Shown: positions 3,246-60,880 of the stretch, in pieces
Position numbering within the stretch: the stretch's first letter is position 1
How the letters are laid out: every line of letters begins with the position of its first letter
Origin: Chitinophagaceae bacterium
GTDB lineage: Bacteria; Bacteroidota; Bacteroidia; Chitinophagales; Chitinophagaceae
DNA: 64,000 bases
Reading direction: 5' to 3'
Assembly (NCBI GenBank): GCA_013140985.1
Contig: JABFRU010000002.1
Span: 124,001 to 188,000 of the forward strand
Made by a program: the position numbers and the translations under genes
Notes under the pieces: generated by a model
Told to the model about the DNA's origin: nothing
Databases searched by the model: none
What the model saw: only the letters and a program-made list of their open reading frames with translations

Positions 3246-3283
3246 GAGGTTGGTCAGGAGAAAAAAGTCGGCGTAAAACCAAC

Positions 3284-3304
3284 TTCAAACTTTAAACTTT
3301 AAAC
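3284..3304 (+). repeat. 7-bp tandem array (3 units) before the zinc-ribbon gene
   Basis: Three consecutive 7-bp units, TTCAAAC then TTTAAAC twice, end six bases before the start codon of the next gene. It is a one-armed member of the heptanucleotide arrays found in many other gaps of this window. Confidence 0.6.
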
Positions 3305-3310
3305 TTACTA

Positions 3311-10515: not shown

Positions 10516-10599
10516 TTTCCCACAAAGCCACAAAGAATTCTAAGCGTTTAAAATCAATATAAGTATTTTTCTTTGTGTTCTTGGAGTCTTAGTGGGAAA
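10516..10599. repeat. TTTCCCAC-bounded imperfect hairpin repeat, copy 1
   Basis: It starts with TTTCCCACAAAG and ends with the inverted counterpart CTTAGTGGGAAA; the arms match imperfectly over about 25 bases, including the inner CAAAGAA / TTCTTGG parts. It lies between two same-strand genes. Three further copies occur at 30499, 51432 and 60805; copies 1 and 2 share a central AAGTATTTT. Confidence 0.8.
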
Positions 10600-16037: not shown

Positions 16038-17597
16038 ATGGATCTTACTAACCTCAACAAAGACCGCAAACAAAGAAGAAAATCTCCGCTCGACTTAGGG
16101 ACAATGGTGTACGGCAAAGTACCACCACAGGCAAAAGACCTTGAAGAAGCAGTGCTTGGCGCTGTAATGCTGGAAAAAAGTGCATTTGATACTGTTGTAG
16201 AAATACTCAAACCTGAATGTTTTTATGTAGAAGCTCACCAGCGCATATTCAGGGCCATGCAAAGCCTTAGCAATAAAAGCCAGCCAATAGATATTCTAAC
16301 TGTTGCAGAAGAATTGAAGTTCAAAGAAGAACTGGAAATGGTGGGCGGCGCTTATTATGTAACCAAACTCACCAATGCTGTTGTTTCATCGGCCAATATT
16401 GAAGCACATGCAAGAATTATCCTTCAAAAATTCATACAAAGAGAGTTGATCCGCATCAGCGGCGAGATCATTGGTGATGCGTATGAAGATTCAACCGATG
16501 TTTTTGACCTGCTGGATGATGCCGAGACCAAATTATTTGAAATAACGAATAACCACCTCCGGAAAAATTTTGATACACTTGATTCGGTATTGGTAAAGAC
16601 CATTCAGCGCATCGAAGACCTGCGCCATAAGAATGAAGATGTGACAGGGGTACCAAGTGGCTTTGCATCACTTGACCGGGTTACTTACGGATGGCAAAAT
16701 ACCGATCTTATTATTTTGGCTGCAAGACCTGCGGTTGGTAAAACTGCATTTGCACTCAACCTTGCCCGCAATGCTGTTATGCATACCGGCAAGTCAACGC
16801 CGGTAGCTTTGTTCTCATTGGAAATGAGCGCAGGCCAGTTGGTACAAAGGATATTGTCTGCAGAAAGCGAAATATGGCTGGAAAAAATTGCAAGAGGAAA
16901 GTTAGAAGAGCATGAAATGAAGCAACTCTATGCAAGGGGTATTCAGCGTTTGGCGCAGGCACCTTTATTCATTGATGATACTCCGGCCCTCAACATTTTT
17001 GAATTAAGGGCAAAATGCCGCCGTTTAAAAAACAAACATAACATCGGGCTGATCATTATAGATTATTTGCAATTAATGAGTGGGACGGGTGAGAATCGCA
17101 ACTCAAACCGGGAACAGGAGATCAGTAATATTTCGAGGAACCTGAAAGCACTGGCAAAAGAATTAAGTGTTCCCATCATTGCTTTATCACAGTTAAGCCG
17201 TGCAGTGGAAACAAGAAGCGCCGGTAAAGATGGTAACAAGATGCCGCAACTGAGTGACCTCCGGGAATCCGGCGCTATTGAACAGGATGCAGATATGGTG
17301 ATGTTCCTCTATCGCCCGGAATATTATGATATCACTCAAAATGAGATGGGAGAAAGTAACCGGGGAGAAACATTGGTGAGAATAGCCAAGCACCGGAATG
17401 GTTCATTGGAAACAATTAAGCTGAGAGCATTATTACATATCCAGAAATTTACAGAAGATGATGGCAGTTTTGGTACCGGGTTATCCGGCAACTGGAAACC
17501 GGTGAGTGATATTGATGGCGATGGAGGAGCGAGGGTGTTTGTGCAAACCGGCAGCAAGATGAATGATCTGAAGGATGAAGGCGAAATGCCATTCTGA
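16038..17597 (+). CDS. dnaB: Replicative DNA helicase DnaB
   Basis: 519 residues, the usual length plus a short N-terminal extension. The DnaB N-terminal domain occupies about residues 30-135 (KDLEEAVLGAVMLEKSAF ...). The RecA-like C-terminal ATPase begins near 195, with Walker A ARPAVGKTA near 230-238, the LFSLEMSAGQ helicase motif, Walker B IIIDYLQLM near 335, and the SQLSRAVE and LRESGAIEQDAD motifs. No intein interrupts it. It unwinds DNA as a hexamer at the replication fork. The stop codon is the first three bases of a 7-bp repeat array. Confidence 0.97.
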   Translation: MDLTNLNKDRKQRRKSPLDLGTMVYGKVPPQAKDLEEAVLGAVMLEKSAFDTVVEILKPECFYVEAHQRIFRAMQSLSNKSQPIDILTVAEELKFKEELEMVGGAYYVTKLTNAVVSSANIEAHARIILQKFIQRELIRISGEIIGDAYEDSTDVFDLLDDAETKLFEITNNHLRKNFDTLDSVLVKTIQRIEDLRHKNEDVTGVPSGFASLDRVTYGWQNTDLIILAARPAVGKTAFALNLARNAVMHTGKSTPVALFSLEMSAGQLVQRILSAESEIWLEKIARGKLEEHEMKQLYARGIQRLAQAPLFIDDTPALNIFELRAKCRRLKNKHNIGLIIIDYLQLMSGTGENRNSNREQEISNISRNLKALAKELSVPIIALSQLSRAVETRSAGKDGNKMPQLSDLRESGAIEQDADMVMFLYRPEYYDITQNEMGESNRGETLVRIAKHRNGSLETIKLRALLHIQKFTEDDGSFGTGLSGNWKPVSDIDGDGGARVFVQTGSKMNDLKDEGEMPF

Positions 17598-17629
17598 TTT
17601 CAGAATGCAGATTTAAGATTTTAGATTTG
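17595..17629 (+). repeat. 7-bp tandem array starting at the dnaB stop codon
   Basis: Five 7-bp units in register with the TGA stop: TGATTTC, AGAATGC, AGATTTA, AGATTTT, AGATTTG. A GTCTCG...CGGGAC inverted repeat follows at 17629-17647, before the rsmE start. Confidence 0.65.
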
Positions 17630-20427: not shown

Positions 20428-20438
20428 GTTTTATTCAA

Positions 20439-20508
20439 TTGGCAATAGGCAATAAGCAGTTGGCAAATTCAGTTCACTTATTGCCTGTTGTCCATTGCCA
20501 ATTGTCTA
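20439..20508. repeat. Two-armed inverted 7-bp array between terC-like gene and pyrD
   Basis: The left arm (20439-20466, plus strand) has the units TTGGCAA, TAGGCAA, TAAGCAG and TTGGCAA. The right arm (20481-20508, minus strand) has TAGACAA, TTGGCAA, TGGACAA and CAGGCAA. The two arms are reverse complements in unit type, 14 bases apart. The first right-arm unit begins with the TAG stop of pyrD. Confidence 0.8.
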
Positions 20509-22280: not shown

Positions 22281-22380
22281 AAGTTTAACGTTCAATAGTT
22301 TAAGAGTTTAATGTTATCGTGCTATGCGAGGATCACTTGAATAACCCGGAACTCAACCTTAAACCTTCAAACCTTTAAAC
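22281..22380. repeat. Loose two-armed repeat of about 7 bp upstream of the thiolase gene
   Basis: The left part (22281-22314) repeats AGTTTAA-like units; the right part (22352-22380) repeats AACCTTA/AACCTTC-like units, which are close to the reverse complement. Spacing is 7-8 bp, so it is a degenerate member of the array class. Confidence 0.45.
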
Positions 22381-22388
22381 ATAAAAAC

Positions 22389-25391: not shown

Positions 25392-26990
25392 ATGAAAAGA
25401 AAAGAATTTTTAAAAAAAGCGATACCGGCCGGCGTCATGCTGCCCGCCATGATAAATGGATATTCTGTAAAAGCCTTTGGTGCAGACTCTCCATTGGTGC
25501 AGGCATTGATGCAGGGCATCACACAAACGGATCATGTATTGGTGATCATTCAACTGGCTGGTGGAAATGATGGATTGAATACAGTGATACCGGTTTCAAG
25601 CTATTCGGATTATTTCAATGCAAGAACAAATATTGCCATTCCGCAAAACAGAATATTGACATTGGGTTCAAGCGGTGCAGGATTGCATCCATCTATGACC
25701 GGTATGCATAATATTTATAACAATGGTATGTTGAAGGTGATACAGGCAGTAGGTTATCCTCAACCCAACTTCTCACACTTCCGGGCAACGGATATATGGA
25801 TGAGTGCATCCAACAGCAACCAGGAGGTCTTTAGCGGATGGGCCGGACGATATTTGAATTATGAATATCCCAATTTTCCAACCGGCTATCCTAATGCTGC
25901 TTCTCCTCATCCATTAGCCATACAAATAGGCTCCACTACCACATTGACCACACAGGGGCCGCAGGTGAATATGGCGATGAGCATCACTAATCCCAATTCT
26001 TTTTATAACCTGCTTACCGGAACAACAGATCCTGTGCCCAACACACCGGCAGGAAAAGAATTAAAATATATCAGGATCGTCAACCAGCAAACGCAGAAGT
26101 ACTCTTCTGTTATTGTTAATGCTGCCACTTCGGTTACACAGCAAGCTCCTTATCCCACCAATAACAGCCTCGCCGATCAACTGAAGATTGTTGCCCGGCT
26201 TATTAAAGGTGGATTGCATACAAGAGTGTATATGGTAAGTTTTGGCGGATTTGATAATCATTCTGTTCAGGTGAATGCAGCGGATACAACAACCGGAACA
26301 CATGCTACTTTATTACAAAGGGTTTCTGATGCGGTAAAGGCATTCCAGGATGACCTGCAATTCCTGCAAGTACAGGACAGGGTGATCGGGATGACCTACA
26401 GTGAATTTGGCCGGAGGATCAAATCCAATTCAAGCACCGGCACCGATCATGGCGCTGCTGCACCGATGTTCTTATTTGGAAGTAAAATAGACAATGGTGT
26501 ATTGGGAAATAATCCAACCATACCAACCAATGTAACGGTGAATGATAATGTACCGATGCAATACGATTTCAGGAGTGTGTATTCAACCATACTGGAAAAA
26601 TGGTTCTGTTTGGATAAAACAGTGGTAGATGGTTTGTATCCGCCGAATATCAATGCGCAGCTGCAATCATTGCCATTATTCAAAAATGGCATCAGCTGTA
26701 ATGCTGTTACGCCACCCCCGCCAACAGATGACAGGATCATTTACAATTCGCCCAACCCATTCAGCAACAGCACAAGGATCACTTTTAAAACAGAAGGCGG
26801 TCATACCCTGATCCAGATCATTGATACATTAGGCCGTGTAATTGTAAACCTGCTTGAAAAAGATTATGCAGTGCCGCTGACCGATTCAGTAATGTTCAAT
26901 TCTGAAGGGTTGCCTACCGGTATCTATTATGCACGCCTGCAAAATGGAGTGATACAAAAAGTAAGGCCAATGCTGAAAGTGAGAGAATAG
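25392..26990 (+). CDS. DUF1501 protein with T9SS sorting domain
   Basis: 532 residues. The N-terminus MKRKEFLKKAIPAGVMLPA is a Tat-like leader without the twin arginine. DUF1501 (sulfatase-like alpha/beta fold) is recognised from LVIIQLAGGNDGLNTVIP near 50, a GLHPSM segment, NFSHFRATDIWMSAS, GGFDNHSVQ near 283 and TYSEFGRRIKSNSS ... DHGAA near 335. The last 85 residues form a type A T9SS sorting domain (NSPNPFSNSTRI ... GLPTGIYYARLQNG). It follows DUF1800 by 28 bases. The TAG stop begins a 7-bp array. Confidence 0.9.
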   Translation: MKRKEFLKKAIPAGVMLPAMINGYSVKAFGADSPLVQALMQGITQTDHVLVIIQLAGGNDGLNTVIPVSSYSDYFNARTNIAIPQNRILTLGSSGAGLHPSMTGMHNIYNNGMLKVIQAVGYPQPNFSHFRATDIWMSASNSNQEVFSGWAGRYLNYEYPNFPTGYPNAASPHPLAIQIGSTTTLTTQGPQVNMAMSITNPNSFYNLLTGTTDPVPNTPAGKELKYIRIVNQQTQKYSSVIVNAATSVTQQAPYPTNNSLADQLKIVARLIKGGLHTRVYMVSFGGFDNHSVQVNAADTTTGTHATLLQRVSDAVKAFQDDLQFLQVQDRVIGMTYSEFGRRIKSNSSTGTDHGAAAPMFLFGSKIDNGVLGNNPTIPTNVTVNDNVPMQYDFRSVYSTILEKWFCLDKTVVDGLYPPNINAQLQSLPLFKNGISCNAVTPPPPTDDRIIYNSPNPFSNSTRITFKTEGGHTLIQIIDTLGRVIVNLLEKDYAVPLTDSVMFNSEGLPTGIYYARLQNGVIQKVRPMLKVRE

Positions 26991-27103
26991 ATAAGAACGA
27001 ATAACTAATAGATAAAAGTGTGGCGTGATTAAAGGAGTAATAAAATCAGTAGTAGATTTCGGATTAAAAGAACTATTAGTTATTCTCTTTTAGTTTTTCA
27101 TTA
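26988..27103. repeat. Two-armed inverted 7-bp array between convergent genes
   Basis: The left arm runs from the TAG stop of the DUF1501 gene (units TAGATAA, GAACGAA, TAACTAA, TAGATAA). The right arm on the minus strand runs from the TAA stop of the next gene (TAATGAA, AAACTAA, AAGAGAA, TAACTAA). A perfect 13-base inverted repeat, GAATAACTAATAG at 26999-27011 and its complement at 27073-27085, links the arms. Confidence 0.75.
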
Positions 27104-38922: not shown

Positions 38923-40104
38923 TTATTTATATTGAAGTGTTCCGGGATGAAAGGTCTCCCATGAATGCCAGAACTCTTGTGAAGCCTGCACTGGTTTGAG
39001 CAACTGATATGAAGAACCAACGCCAAATACTCTTCCATCATAATCGCACGGCATATTTGTAGTGATATCTCTCAGCCCCGTACTATCAGCTATAAAGCGG
39101 AAAGTTTGTCCATTAATACTTCTGTTCCATACATGGAAAGAAGCATTGTCAGGCTCAATCGCAATTACAATGGGCAGACCCGGAAGTGAATCGTTGATCA
39201 CCCTTTGTTTTACAAGGTCATTCCAGTCATAGGCCTTGGATATATTATTGTATTCAACACCTATCACCCATGATTTGGATTTCCATGAACCACTGTCCCT
39301 TTTTTCCAAGCCACTGTTAAGAATGCCAAGATCAAAACCATTCAGGTGATCATATTGTTTTTGGAAAGCAGGATCGGGTTGTAAAATAAATGAAGAAGGG
39401 TTTCGTCTCAGCCATGCTGATAAACGCATTTGTTGCGAAGGGATTTCTTTTAATGTTTCTCCTTTTAATTTTCCGGCCACAGCTTCGCCGGTAGCCTGCC
39501 GCCACCAGCTTTTTGTTTTTTTGTCTTCAAACATGGCATTGAAATGATCCATGCCTACCAAACGGAAACTTTCTTTTTTACCTTTTACCATCGGGCTGAA
39601 TACTCTTCCCGTCCTGCAAACAGTACAATACGTAACGATCACTTCTTCTCCACCAATGGTATCCTGCACCTGGTGATGATAACCGATGATCTCGATAGGA
39701 TAAGCTTTTGACTGACCGTTTATGGTGACGCCCAATACCAATTTATCCGAAGGGATCTTATTATCTGCAGCCGCAACTAAACTTTTTGTTTTTGGCTGGT
39801 AAAACATTTTATCGGCCAGGAATTTGAAATTGACCATGTAAAAAATACCGGCATACAGGAACATGAAGAAAATGAATACCCCTTTTTGCCACATCTTCCA
39901 ACGCTTAAAAGAATCATACAATGGAAAAATAATAAGTATGACTGCAATGATGCGGATAGCCCAGATGTATTTATTCATGAAATATGCAATGCTTAGCGTA
40001 TTGCTTTGCTGGCTGCCGGGAAATGGCATGATAAAATATACTCTTAGTATCTCGGCAATAAAAAGGAGCAGAACACCGCCAATAAGCAGTAGTTTGTTTT
40101 TCAT
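38923..40104 (-). CDS. DUF3179 protein with N-terminal membrane helices
   Basis: 393 residues. Four hydrophobic helices lie in the first 110 residues; then a DUF3179 domain with KLVLGVTINGQSKAYPI near 125, TYCTVCRTGRVFSP (two cysteines, near 158) and the ATGEAVAG motif near 210. DUF3179 proteins are often membrane-associated; reaction unknown. It is on the same strand as the downstream lysyl-oxidase-like gene, with a gap of 153 bases. A heptanucleotide array is 43 bases upstream. Confidence 0.88.
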   Translation of the reverse strand: MKNKLLLIGGVLLLFIAEILRVYFIMPFPGSQQSNTLSIAYFMNKYIWAIRIIAVILIIFPLYDSFKRWKMWQKGVFIFFMFLYAGIFYMVNFKFLADKMFYQPKTKSLVAAADNKIPSDKLVLGVTINGQSKAYPIEIIGYHHQVQDTIGGEEVIVTYCTVCRTGRVFSPMVKGKKESFRLVGMDHFNAMFEDKKTKSWWRQATGEAVAGKLKGETLKEIPSQQMRLSAWLRRNPSSFILQPDPAFQKQYDHLNGFDLGILNSGLEKRDSGSWKSKSWVIGVEYNNISKAYDWNDLVKQRVINDSLPGLPIVIAIEPDNASFHVWNRSINGQTFRFIADSTGLRDITTNMPCDYDGRVFGVGSSYQLLKPVQASQEFWHSWETFHPGTLQYK

Positions 40105-40147
40105 TGGTGCAAAATGAGGGGGTGAATGTACGAATTCCTGACGTCAA

Positions 40148-40250
40148 TGGTGAATAGTGAATAGTGAATCGTGAATCGTGAATGGCCCCCGCATTTTATA
40201 GAGTCTTATTCACCACTGACCATTCACTATTGACGATTCACCATTCACGA
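40148..40250. repeat. Two-armed inverted 7-bp array between two same-strand genes
   Basis: The left arm (40148-40182, plus strand) has five units of the types TGGTGAA, TAGTGAA and TCGTGAA. The right arm (40209-40250, minus strand) has six units of the same types. The right arm begins directly after the TAG stop of the MutS-like gene. The two arms are reverse complements in unit type, separated by about 26 bases. Confidence 0.85.
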
Positions 40251-41567
40251 CTACAGTTTTTCCAGCATCTCCACCACTTTCTCTCTTCGTAAGATCACAT
40301 AACCGATACGGTCATTGCTGATGCCATCTTTTAGCTGGTAACTGAATTCAAGCTGATCGTCATTGACATTGGTCTCGAAATAGCGGAAACTGATGTTCGG
40401 ATACTTTTTTAATTCTTCCCCGATCTCGTAGAGGTGAGTGGAAAGAATGAACAAGGAGTTTTTAATTTTTATTAGCCCCTTGATAACGGTCAGTGAACAT
40501 TTCATCGCATCCTGCACATTGGTGCCTTTGAACAATTCATCGATCAGCACCAGCCATTTTTTTCCATCATTTATTTTTTCCACTGTATTTTTTACTCGCT
40601 GTACTTCATTGAAAAAATAACTTTCGCCTTTGGCAATGTTATCTTCAACGTTGATATTGCTTAACAATCCATCAAACAAAGTAAGTTTCATGTTCTCTGC
40701 CGGTACGCCCATGCCGATATGTGCCAGGAAAACTGCTGAGCCAATTGATTTTATCAATGTGCTTTTGCCCGCCATATTGGCGCCGGTAAGAAATAAAAAA
40801 TTATGCAGCGGATCCATCTGCACATCATAAGCTATAGGCTGGGGTAATAATATATGGTAGAGTTTTTTTGCATCTACCAATGCTGTATCCTGCTCAATGA
40901 ATTCAGGAAAACTAAGTCCATACGTTTTTACAGCCACAGCCATTGAGTACCATGCATCCAGTTTGCTGAACGTATCTATCAGTTCCAGCGTTTCCCTTTT
41001 GTAACGGCTACGCAGATGAAAGGCATAAAATAAATTTTGCCGTGTAGAGAATTTCTTATGTGGTTCTGTTTCTGATAATTTTTGCAAAGGGGCTTCCTGC
41101 AATACCCGGCCAATACGATCCGTATATAATTTGATGCTGGGTGGAAGTTCGAGACCCTGCAATAATTCATTGATCTGTTTCAGGCCACGATAAAAGTCTG
41201 CAAAGTGACCGACAGAATATTTTACCATGGAATAATCTTCGCTGTGCAGCCATTTGTACAGCATATTGTTGAAGGAAGCAGGGTTTTCATTGATGGGATC
41301 AAGTGAGTAGTCTAAGAACTTGTCCATCATCAGCACAGTACCATTGGTAATACCCGTAGGCCAGTCCTTCACATGCTCCATAAAACTGCGGATGATCTTT
41401 TGTGTACCGATGATCTTTTCAATACTGTCATGCGGCTCACTGAAAAATTTCTTCAGCCATTCTTTACCGCCAACCGTCCGGGTAAAATTGAGCTTATGAA
41501 AAATAGAGAATTCTTCTTCCTGGTGAAAGATCGAAATGTCGTTGAATGATTGTCTGTCTATTTGCAT
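40251..41567 (-). CDS. MutS-related DNA mismatch-repair-like ATPase
   Basis: 438 residues, about half the length of MutS. The N-terminal 230 residues are helical and correspond to the core/lever regions; the C-terminal domain has Walker A GANMAGKST near 258, the NINVEDNIAKGESYFFNEV motif, Walker B VLIDELFKGTN near 345, and STHLYEIGEEL. The mismatch-binding domain I is absent, as is a Smr domain (so not MutS2). In Bacteroidota this is a recognised MutS-like family of unknown repair role. Arrays of 7-bp units flank both ends. Confidence 0.85.
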   Translation of the reverse strand: MQIDRQSFNDISIFHQEEEFSIFHKLNFTRTVGGKEWLKKFFSEPHDSIEKIIGTQKIIRSFMEHVKDWPTGITNGTVLMMDKFLDYSLDPINENPASFNNMLYKWLHSEDYSMVKYSVGHFADFYRGLKQINELLQGLELPPSIKLYTDRIGRVLQEAPLQKLSETEPHKKFSTRQNLFYAFHLRSRYKRETLELIDTFSKLDAWYSMAVAVKTYGLSFPEFIEQDTALVDAKKLYHILLPQPIAYDVQMDPLHNFLFLTGANMAGKSTLIKSIGSAVFLAHIGMGVPAENMKLTLFDGLLSNINVEDNIAKGESYFFNEVQRVKNTVEKINDGKKWLVLIDELFKGTNVQDAMKCSLTVIKGLIKIKNSLFILSTHLYEIGEELKKYPNISFRYFETNVNDDQLEFSYQLKDGISNDRIGYVILRREKVVEMLEKL

Positions 41568-41574
41568 ATTTAGC

Positions 41575-41722
41575 AGATAAAAACTAATAAATAATAATTA
41601 AAAGTGCTTCAAAGTTGTAATTGTCCTCAATTTGGGTACATTTTGCTTTAGGGAAAAATGCTCTGAATTTGATAGTTATCTTCTTCAAACAACTTTTATC
41701 TATTAGTTTTTATCTTTTATCT
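41575..41722. repeat. Two-armed inverted 7-bp array between MutS-like gene and pyrC
   Basis: The left arm (41575-41606, plus) has AGATAAA, AACTAAT, AAATAAT, AATTAAA then AGTG. The right arm (41691-41722, minus) has AGATAAA, AGATAAA, AACTAAT, AGATAAA then AGTT. The pyrC stop TAA is in the first right-arm unit. The vocabulary is the same as at 26988-27103. Confidence 0.8.
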
Positions 41723-43051
41723 AATAAATTTAAGCCGTTGCCCTTTCTGCGACTCATCCCATTTTCCATTTTCATACACCAGGTTGCCGTTCACAAACGT
41801 ATGAGTGACAGATGCAGGAAATTCCATACCATCCAGCGGACTCCAGCCGCATTTATATAAAATATTCTCTTTTGAAACCTTTGTTTGCTTATTGAGATCA
41901 ACTATTACAAGGTCCGCATGATAACCTTCCCGGATAAAGCCCCGGTCTTTTACCTGGAAACAATCGGCCACGGCATGACTCATTTTTTCGGCGATCTTTT
42001 CCAAAGATATTTTGCCCAGTTTGTGATAATACAACATCAATAACAGCGGATGCTGAACAAGTGGTAACCCGGCATGAGCTTTTTCATAAGGCTCATTTTT
42101 TTCTTCCCATGTATGCGGGGCATGGTCCGTGGCGATCACATCAAGACGATCATCAAGCAAGGCTTTCCACAATGCTTCTTTATGATGCGGCGCTTTGATA
42201 GCCGGATTGCATTTGATCTTATTGCCCAATCGTTCATAATCATCACTGGTAAAATGCAAATGATGCACACAAACTTCTGAAGTAATTCTTTTATCCTTCA
42301 GCGGTATCATATTGGTGAACAGCTGCAATTCTTTTTCTGTACTGATATGTAAGATGTGCAGCCTTGATCCATATTTTTTTGCGATCTGGATAGCATATAA
42401 TGATGATTCATAACAGGCGTCCTCATTTCTTATGATTGGATGGTCCGCAGCTGTTGGCTTATAGCTATTAGCTATCAGCTTCTCTAGGTTCTCCCTGATG
42501 ATCTTTTCATCCTCACAGTGTGTGGCGATCAGCAATTCACTTTCCCTGAAAATTTTATCCAGTGTGCCGGGATTATCCACCAGTAAATTGCCGGTAGAAG
42601 CGCCCATGAATATTTTTACACCGCAAACATCTTTACGTTTATCATTTGTCCGCAACACATCATCCGTATTTGTATTGGAAGTGCCCATGAAAAAAGAATA
42701 ATTGGCTGGTGATGTATGAGCAGCGATAGTGTATTTGTCTTCCAGCAATGATTGAGTGAATGCCGGCGGAACCGTATTCGGCATTTCCATAAAACTGGTA
42801 ACACCACCGGCCACCGCTGCTTTTGCTTCCGTAGCGATGGTTGCCTTATGTGTCAGTCCCGGTTCCCGGAAATGCACCTGGTCATCGATACAACCGGGAA
42901 ATAAATATTTACCCTCTCCAATTATTTCGGTTGCATTCGTATCAATAGAAGAAGCGATCTTTTCAATACGACCCCGGTTTATCAACAGGTCGGCCGTTAT
43001 AATGCGGCCCTCGTTGACAACCTGTATTCCCTTAATCAGATATTTTTGCAT
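41717..43051 (-). CDS. pyrC: Dihydroorotase
   Basis: 444 residues, dihydroorotase of pyrimidine synthesis. Metal-binding motif DDQVHFREPG near residue 57 (an unusual Q where H is common between the ligands), the lysine region KIFMGASTGN near 148 (carboxylated Lys in the family), THCEDE near 178, LHISTEKEL near 237 and DVIATDHAPHT near 310. A 7-bp array is coded within a surface loop (residues about 191-199). Its neighbour on the other side is an outer-membrane protein, divergently transcribed. Confidence 0.93.
   Translation of the reverse strand: MQKYLIKGIQVVNEGRIITADLLINRGRIEKIASSIDTNATEIIGEGKYLFPGCIDDQVHFREPGLTHKATIATEAKAAVAGGVTSFMEMPNTVPPAFTQSLLEDKYTIAAHTSPANYSFFMGTSNTNTDDVLRTNDKRKDVCGVKIFMGASTGNLLVDNPGTLDKIFRESELLIATHCEDEKIIRENLEKLIANSYKPTAADHPIIRNEDACYESSLYAIQIAKKYGSRLHILHISTEKELQLFTNMIPLKDKRITSEVCVHHLHFTSDDYERLGNKIKCNPAIKAPHHKEALWKALLDDRLDVIATDHAPHTWEEKNEPYEKAHAGLPLVQHPLLLMLYYHKLGKISLEKIAEKMSHAVADCFQVKDRGFIREGYHADLVIVDLNKQTKVSKENILYKCGWSPLDGMEFPASVTHTFVNGNLVYENGKWDESQKGQRLKFIR
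42453..42480 (-). repeat. 7-bp array inside the pyrC coding region
   Basis: Four units: GTTGGCT, TATAGCT, ATTAGCT, ATCAGCT. Read on the minus strand it encodes K-L-I-A-N-S-Y-K-P-T, in frame. Confidence 0.65.
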
Positions 43052-52991: not shown

Positions 52992-52997
52992 GGCTCA

Positions 52998-53005
52998 CAA
53001 AGGTA
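52998..53005 (-). promoter_or_regulatory. Predicted -7 element next to the ubiE start (near-leaderless)
   Basis: The minus strand reads TACCTTTG, a perfect TAnnTTTG, then TGAGCC and the ATG. Transcription would begin about 3 bases before the start codon. A partial CTTG lies about 21 bases upstream at the -33 position. Confidence 0.55.
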
Positions 53006-53105
53006 CAAGGTGCTGAGCACAAGGAACAAGATGGATCACTATAAAATGTTATTTCATTACTATCACGCCGCTTGTGCCCTGCACCTTGTACCTTGCGCCT
53101 TTAGT
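53000..53105. repeat. Two-armed inverted 7-bp array between divergent ubiE and ysxC
   Basis: The left arm (53000-53034, plus) has AAGGTAC, AAGGTGC, TGAGCAC, AAGGAAC, AAGATGG. The right arm (53071-53105) read on the minus strand has AAGGCGC, AAGGTAC, AAGGTGC and AGGGCAC. The left arm overlaps the ubiE promoter element. Confidence 0.8.
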
Positions 53106-60804: not shown

Positions 60805-60880
60805 TTTCCCACAAAGACACTAAGAGCACAAAAAAGGCACATTGATCTTAACTACTTTGTGGTTCTGTGTCTTTGTGGGA
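60805..60880. repeat. TTTCCCAC-bounded hairpin repeat, copy 4
   Basis: It begins TTTCCCACAAAGACACTAAG and ends GTGTCTTTGTGGGA. Its reverse complement contains the core TAGTTAAGATCAAT and the TGTGCC then TTTTTTGTG that nearly match copy 3 in opposite orientation. Confidence 0.8.

Follow-up and report, generated by a model that had tools for sequence, protein, structure and literature searches.

Between two genes of a Chitinophagaceae bacterium, tandem heptanucleotides form two arrays that face each other in inverted orientation, which raises the question of what such paired arrays are and where they come from. We examined them in a 64,000-nt stretch of the genome, referred to as the window, in further sequence of the same source genome, and in other genomes. 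Of the arrangement first described for this gap, five and six units 26 bases apart, the paired inverted arrays stood, while the counts were revised to six plus six units separated by 24-25 bases. Both arms are built from units of the type GTSAATN, where S is G or C, and the right arm ends 2 bases from the stop codon of a MutS-like gene (40251-41567). Two-armed arrays had also been reported at four further sites of the window; all four were found again, and a sixth two-armed structure was added at 22284-22386 (Table 1). Another class of intergenic palindrome consists of inverted pairs of a 9-base type (CCCACAAAGNCAC), located at 10516-10599 and 60807-60880 of the window and at L031:12779 and L026:18616; many pairs of this type occur in G319, a genome from another genus of the family, where they read CACAGAGA.

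Table 1. Repeat arrays located in the 64,000-nt window. The last column gives the best score against the arms of PF05635 elements in the source genome, followed by the value for other genomes.
Feature	Positions	Strand	Basis	Best arm match
Left arm, six GTSAATN heptamers	40143-40183	+	6 of 6 units exact	27, element of contig 63 (L083); other genomes at most 21
Inter-arm spacer, 24 bases (24-25 by count)	40184-40207		position analysis	
Right arm, six GTSAATN-type heptamers	40208-40248	-	5 of 6 units exact	
Gene-less two-armed element, GRCAATN vocabulary	20436-20504		inverted-repeat search	22, element L223:4384 of contig 63; other genomes at most 20
Gene-less two-armed element, period about 8, GTTTAAGG type	22284-22386		inverted-repeat search	20, element of contig 49 (L289); other genomes at most 11
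Gene-less two-armed element, GATAAAA/ACTAATA vocabulary	26985-27099		inverted-repeat search	16, element of contig 43 (L293); other genomes at most 13
Gene-less two-armed element, GATAAAA vocabulary	41568-41729		inverted-repeat search	30, element of contig 43 (L293); other genomes at most 16
Two-armed element, ACAAGGT/CCTTGTG type	53001-53093		inverted-repeat search	7; other genomes 11
Single heptamer array, AACTTTA	3281-3306		lag-7 segment search	14; other genomes equal
Single heptamer array, AGATTTA	17592-17628		lag-7 segment search	15, L223:7774

The pattern extends well beyond the window. An excess of intergenic identity at lag 7 over shuffled sequence, which had been proposed as a check on the arrays, was present in 464 kb of the source genome including the window (z = 12.4) and, more weakly, in a second sample of 400 kb (z = 5.8). 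Intergenic sequence of the 464 kb sample also gave z = 7.1 at lag 14, z = 6.5 at lag 8 and z = 15 at lag 3, and its coding sequence had no lag-7 excess. Lag-7 segments scoring at least 14 numbered 33 in the same sample, where ten shuffles averaged 0.1; inverted repeats numbered 59, and the two shuffled sets yielded 1 and 4. The original prediction that each gap uses a unit vocabulary of its own had to be abandoned: a genome-wide search for three exact units locates GTSAATN arrays at 35 places (36 when one mismatch is allowed), and nine vocabularies common to at least two arrays take in 33 of the 45 arrays in 864 kb, as grouped by loose clustering. An identical 90-base GTSAAT-array sequence stands at the ends of two contigs (L064, contig 9:68, and L079, contig 55:21514); these copies probably reflect an assembly break in the repeat, and as their flanks are identical the two GTSAATN places may be one.

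In the source genome, two pairs of GTSAATN arms stand about 500 bp apart and each encloses one ORF. Both ORFs belong to the family PF05635 (23S_rRNA_IVP; E-values of 6.7e-28 and 2.4e-29), and hmmscan confirmed this identity for three ORFs in all. A profile search found 16 PF05635 matches in the source genome, 15 of them over the family cut-off, and inverted arms scoring 15 to 34 surround all 16, with a period of 7 or 8 bases in nearly every case; 14 of the 16 domains are free of internal stops. None of these matches lies on contig 1, which contains the window. Since the profile search gave no PF05635 match within the window, the window holds gene-less copies only.

The association of PF05635 genes with arms was then assessed in 39 genomes of the phylum. 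Arms scoring at least 14, mostly tandem 7- or 8-mers, enclose 70 of 89 PF05635 genes, a set consisting mostly of the best-scoring family members, compared with 2 of 89 when the flanks were shuffled and 7 of 189 control genes, whose windows were centered inside genes and therefore have more coding sequence in their flanks. At a score of at least 16 the counts were 61 and 4. The 89 genes were drawn from 310 PF05635 matches, some of which are pieces of one gene, and comprise 29 of 30 and 30 loci from two profile searches, 16 loci of the source genome and 14 others; among the latter, L224 and L286 had been picked for their nearness to GTSAAT arrays and L100 and L102 for the gap next to the MutS-like gene. 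L238, a duplicate of a source-genome gene, was left out, and the duplicates L296, L297 and L298 were not counted. Inverted arms scoring at least 14 were absent from 19 of the 89 genes, including a G018 gene that lies beside a GTSAAT array (score 12). The outer size of the 70 armed elements has a median of 504 bp (interquartile range 466-549 bp). The motif RxxxSxxxNxxE, recorded for the family (PMC3936711), is present in 69 of the 89 genes. The nearest solved structure to the element proteins is 2gsc, XCC0516, and this relative is described as a homopentamer of four-helix bundles (PMC4990558). Within the source genus, nine genomes of up to 2.1 Mb hold 0-2 PF05635 matches and six genomes of 3.6-4.6 Mb hold 6-11. 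PF05635 genes are enclosed by inverted tandem 7- or 8-mer arms; a gene beside arms is no proof that its protein acts on them.

Two further observations bear on the relation between protein and arms. Protein kinship goes with vocabulary: for nearest PF05635 proteins across genomes the arm likeness was 10.18, against 6.98 (sd 0.36) and a maximum of 8.25 in 1000 permutations, with 67 of the 70 armed genes used. The protein of contig 10 and a protein of G280, both within GTSAATN arms, are mutual nearest neighbors (69%); the G280 protein is also the nearest to the PF05635 protein of contig 63 (54%), and the protein of contig 80, with TTAGCNN arms, has its nearest neighbor in G319 (60%) beside the same word. 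Likewise, gene-less arrays match arms from the genome in which they lie. In the source genome 42 of 56 scored at least 14 against own-genome arms (15.2 expected), and in G319 47 of 53 did so (6.7 expected), where the expected counts come from equal-size sets of arms of other genomes with base composition unmatched (G319 has 46% GC) and both arms of an element count separately. The mean score of the source-genome arrays against their own arms was 17.25, compared with 12.15 (sd 0.73) and a maximum of 13.96 in 1000 draws. Four PF05635 genes cover the abundant vocabularies of G319, one of the four lying beside a one-sided array, and ATTYCTN arrays match source-genome arms weakly (12-16).

The window follows the same pattern. 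Five of the six two-armed elements match an arm pair of a full-length element in the source genome with scores of 16-30, in every case higher than the top score from other genomes (Table 1); for the vocabulary of the element at 53001-53093 no partner gene was found. PF05635 matches were present in 15 of the 16 GTSAAT-bearing genomes searched, 4 to 17 in each, and the exception, G131, combined 12 hits to four GTSAAT units with no PF05635 match. Heptamers of the reversed search pattern (TAASTG, like TAACTGA) are plentiful in some Bacteroidota, and this pattern is no clean negative control there because it is itself a known TAACTGA-type heptamer, frequent in some genomes; G154, G313 and G254, which are rich in it, have 15, 9 and 6 PF05635 matches, respectively. 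A universal lexicon across species was rejected, as the sharing of gene-less vocabularies between at least two species was no greater than chance (10 clusters compared with 12.7 with letters permuted; 97 of 125 arrays). Taken together, we think it likely that each pair of heptamer arrays is a copy, lacking the gene, of a small palindromic PF05635 element, that each protein has its own vocabulary, and that the short copies depend on it in trans.

The number and agreement of the units bear on two alternatives. One, which in part goes back to the original prediction, is that replication slippage and local inverted template switching produce the arrays separately at each gap with no protein partner, shared vocabularies being due to chance or composition. 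GTSAATN arrays have four units in 50 of 60 cases, with GT.AAT fixed and the S and N positions variable. Between the two arms of an element the S positions are equal in 32 of 80 comparisons (0.40), compared with 0.53 between elements, and the N positions in 35 of 80, compared with 0.30. As the agreement at S falls below the between-element level, the GTSAATN arms are no simple mirror copies, and mirror-copied arms were not found in the source genome. Local copying is nevertheless visible in G319, where the arms of 27 elements mirror each other in register (identity of 0.85, compared with 0.71 at shifts of 7 and 14). Because the register was picked as the best, cross-locus scores are the fairer control for this mirroring, and they gave 37.4 versus 21.7 for one class. 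At one G319 site a 16-bp non-repeat flank is present again in inverted form on the opposite side, and some G319 arrays exceed 10 units. We retain local copying as a contributor, but because the unit number is mostly four and vocabularies are shared within a genome and track its PF05635 genes, neither slippage nor a purely local generator is supported as the main cause, and as a full explanation we judge this alternative improbable.

The second alternative is that the tandem units have a cellular function as binding sites or non-B structures, with G-quadruplexes or a regulator as candidates. A four-unit preference in G-rich repeats has been tied to quadruplexes (Rehm et al., PMC4692102); here the preference holds for GTSAATN, which is not G-rich, and many vocabularies coexist in one genome, so that a cell function of this kind appears highly improbable. 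The spacers of GTSAATN elements resemble one another (mutual likeness of 5.73, compared with 4.73, sd 0.15, in shuffles; 12 spacers). When a spacer core matrix was run on the first 464 kb, its top two hits beyond the training set adjoined other heptamers (L020:4641 and L028:12846). We do not claim a shared spacer core, since none of the 20 top hits in the second 400 kb lay beside heptamers. At two loci of G319 C1 (about 1021691-1021851 and 1106976-1107194), large non-heptameric palindromes, GTCGCC.GGCGAC and GTGCGAGACC.GGTCTCGCAC, are centered in heptamer arrays as if nested.

We compared the gaps of the window with orthologous gaps in related species, in which the array was missing, had the same vocabulary, or was replaced by another vocabulary. 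Named relatives of the MutS-like gene come from Chitinophagaceae and other Bacteroidota and are mostly metagenome-assembled genomes (MAGs). The gap between the amidohydrolase gene and the MutS-like gene is filled in the window by the element at 41568-41729 with its GATAAAA units. Seven of 26 named loci have GTSAATN in this gap, more have other vocabularies, and others are empty, with labels for these loci (L138 to L163) assigned by eye. On a protein tree of 26 among the 43 named loci (L138 to L163), to which the source genome and three G genomes were added, the seven GTSAATN cases imply seven changes, and well-supported branches force four or more of these. Upstream of the MutS-like gene, where the source genome has the gene-less GATAAAA array, G003 (L100:11730) and G011 (L102:13435) have a full PF05635 element with CAAGA-type arms. 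The gap at 52992-53073 contains differing arrays in G008, G014, G003 and G011 and none in G004. A DUF3179 gene (38923-40104) lies downstream of the MutS-like gene in the source genome only; within 1.5 kb of flank, no DUF3179 match was found near the MutS-like gene in any of eight other relatives.

G319 is far richer in arrays than the source genome (lag-7 z of 36 over 400 kb), and three of its gaps measure about 270, 310 and 350 bp, compared with 25, 68 and 60 bp in its congener G323; neither a target-site duplication nor a clean insertion boundary was found at these three gaps. Nor did the comparisons reveal movement inside a species. Element and vocabulary turn over in orthologous gaps, and exact conservation between distant strains, which would have spoken against the repeats as first described, was not what we saw: the same gap has a differing vocabulary or none in related species. 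These comparisons are also relevant to the proposal that the hairpins arise otherwise and that PF05635 elements insert into their loops as passengers, each preferring one vocabulary. That one orthologous gap contains a gene-less element in some species and a PF05635 element in G003 and G011 is compatible with it, as is the insertion of intervening sequences in hairpin tips of rRNA (PMC4990558). The proposal does not explain where the arms come from or why they turn over together with the genes, and it sits poorly with the narrow size range of the full elements; we regard it as unlikely.

Stable hairpins between genes could also be transcription terminators or mRNA-stabilizing structures kept by selection on RNA. 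The element at 40143-40248 folds at -47.7 kcal/mol on the - strand (z of -6.9) and at -38.2 kcal/mol on the + strand (z of -4.7). Arms lie within 30 bp of the stop codon at 32 of 37 stop sides, and in G319 convergent gaps are enriched among elements (16 of 44, compared with 52 of 328 gene pairs). Against this, arms are also within 30 bp of the gene start at 19 of 38 start sides, and the 33 elements of the unbiased source-genome sample, in 23 tandem, 5 convergent and 5 divergent gaps, follow the baseline of 250, 57 and 57. In tandem gaps the sense strand gave the more stable hairpin in 16 of 33 cases in the source genome and in 10 of 22 in G319. Selection on RNA was accordingly rejected for want of a strand bias of hairpin stability, and we consider a terminator or mRNA-stabilizing role very unlikely.

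Known partner genes of mobile repeats were searched for as well. A reverse transcriptase partner was rejected, as RVT_1 had no match in the source genome (G000) or G319 and was present in three of the 12 genomes searched. Movement of REP/REPIN-like repeats by RAYT (Y1) transposases would share the logic of a gene with its own repeat, and the source genome has five PF01797 (Y1, RAYT-like) matches. Among 30 PF01797 loci, which include two of the five source-genome ones, only L109 has heptamers arrayed in the 500 bp around it, if a run of N in L124 is disregarded, and this disfavors RAYT; several of these genes (L113, L115-L117, L119, L125-L127, L134 and L137) have GC-rich palindromes such as CCCCGGGTTGGCACCCGGGG at their flanks instead, and movement by RAYT proteins is thus extremely unlikely for the heptamer arrays. 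The GC-rich palindromes are a separate REP-like system. It seems that the partner is neither an RVT_1 reverse transcriptase nor a Y1 transposase.

The PF05635-array association is also found on plasmids. A tblastn search with one PF05635 element protein returned 11 plasmid records, ten from cyanobacteria (Nostoc, Calothrix, Aulosira, Geminocystis and Stanieria) and one from Gemmatirosa (Gemmatimonadota). An array of 7- or 8-base units lies no more than 450 bp from each of the 11 PF05635-like genes; seven of the genes have inverted arms scoring at least 15, the other four arrays being without an inverted pair; the set covers 11 of 12 places and includes the near-duplicate pairs L306/L316 and L310/L315. 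In Nostoc edaphicum, for example, the arms are built of AGGGAAC heptamers, and in Gemmatirosa of GGAGGGCA octamers. STRR is the name of the cyanobacterial heptanucleotide repeats, and the likeness to them noted at the outset proved a good lead, as heptamers of the same build lie beside ten of ten PF05635-like genes on cyanobacterial plasmids. The same tblastn search found no match in a phage collection, which leaves carriage by phages unsupported.

These results suggest the following model. A full element of about 500 bp comprises an arm of tandem 7- or 8-mers, one PF05635 gene for a four-helix-bundle protein, and the inverted arm; each protein copy would have a heptamer vocabulary of its own, and short elements in that vocabulary would depend on the protein in trans. 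The protein may bind and coat the tandem units of its own arms, since each arm is a long run of tandem sites (for GTSAATN most often four units, or 28 bases) and the family forms rings. Binding would let the palindrome be copied at the DNA level into short intergenic gaps, as the spread of gene-less copies in trans, the exchange of vocabularies in the same gap and the short empty gaps together suggest. This copying would probably proceed by hairpin-assisted template switching at the replication fork: the lack of RVT_1 and of a link to Y1 points to a DNA route that borrows host replication, of which the mirrored 16-bp flank in G319 would be a trace. The arms would afterwards be reshaped locally by slippage and inverted copying. 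In the best reading, the elements are intergenic selfish elements, kin to the intervening sequences (IVS) of 23S rRNA.

Heptanucleotide repeats are on record from cyanobacteria, Xanthomonas, Geobacter and Beggiatoaceae, and the publications consulted leave open what they do or how they arose; PF05635 proteins are described as widespread and structurally solved but without known function (PMC4990558). If the repeats and PF05635 belong together, the function or origin of the former and the function of the latter become directly testable by binding, and the pairing offers a testable origin for long unexplained bacterial repeats. It would also define a small mobile-like element that needs no recognized transposase, supply many natural pairs of protein and site from which a recognition code could be read, and require for the four-unit preference an explanation other than G-quadruplexes. 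We lean slightly towards the broader proposal that PF05635 proteins are sequence-specific heptamer partners driving selfish palindromes in several phyla, such that the repeats of Bacteroidota, cyanobacteria (STRR) and Gemmatimonadota, and perhaps of Xanthomonas, Geobacter and Beggiatoaceae, belong to a single kind of transposase-free element whose protein-to-heptamer code can be read. A link between PF05635 and heptamer arrays was not found in the open-access literature; as subscription journals and preprints were mostly outside the search, this is no proof of novelty.

Several known systems resemble these elements in part. Intervening sequences of 23S rRNA with an S23p/PF05635 ORF are known from Leptospira, Coxiella and others. 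Like them, the full-length elements have one gene of the PF05635/S23p family between complementary ends able to form a stem-loop. They differ in that gene-less copies, including 40143-40248, are without the PF05635 gene, in that the window elements lie between protein-coding ORFs rather than in helices of rRNA genes, and in their many copies per genome, their tandem heptamer arms and the separate vocabulary of each protein copy. The P6b heptanucleotide hairpins of the cyanobacterial tRNA-Leu intron also have degenerate heptamers in two arms that pair; they lie inside an intron, whereas the elements described here are intergenic, and we know of no protein partner of the P6b hairpins. IVS have been termed parasitic elements (PMC4990558). 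Insertions in the rRNA genes of CPR bacteria can likewise carry PF05635 ORFs, and for LAGLIDADG-bearing sites there it is reported that the insertion at a given site may have an ORF or lack one (PMC11270868).

With STRR-type repeats, compared by build, the arrays share tandem degenerate heptamers in intergenic DNA; STRR proper belong to filamentous cyanobacteria, whereas the window has its relatives among Chitinophagaceae and other Bacteroidota MAGs. Published examples include the heptanucleotides GGGAATC of Xanthomonas and GGGGAYT of Nostoc, the Xanthomonas repeats preferring four units and including 70 and 75 counted convergent pairs (PMC4692102), the TAACTGA repeats of Beggiatoaceae, cyanobacteria and five Bacteroidetes (PMC4679880), and Geobacter heptamer elements, among them a family whose 49 members have four units and a class of 16 members, 15 of which have five (PMC2700814). 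For such repeats their authors proposed quadruplexes or regulators, and the passages that describe them name no PF05635 partner. Avd of diversity-generating retroelements resembles PF05635 (PMC10053308); these retroelements differ from the present case, in which RVT_1 is missing from the source genome and G319. A system that is alike in logic is that of REPINs, inverted intergenic doublets of which each kind lies beside its own single-copy RAYT gene, with gene-less copies elsewhere (PMC3116915). Here too each kind of repeat has its own gene and gene-less copies in the genome, but the partner is a four-helix-bundle protein instead of a Y1 transposase, and the arms are tandem 7- or 8-mers.
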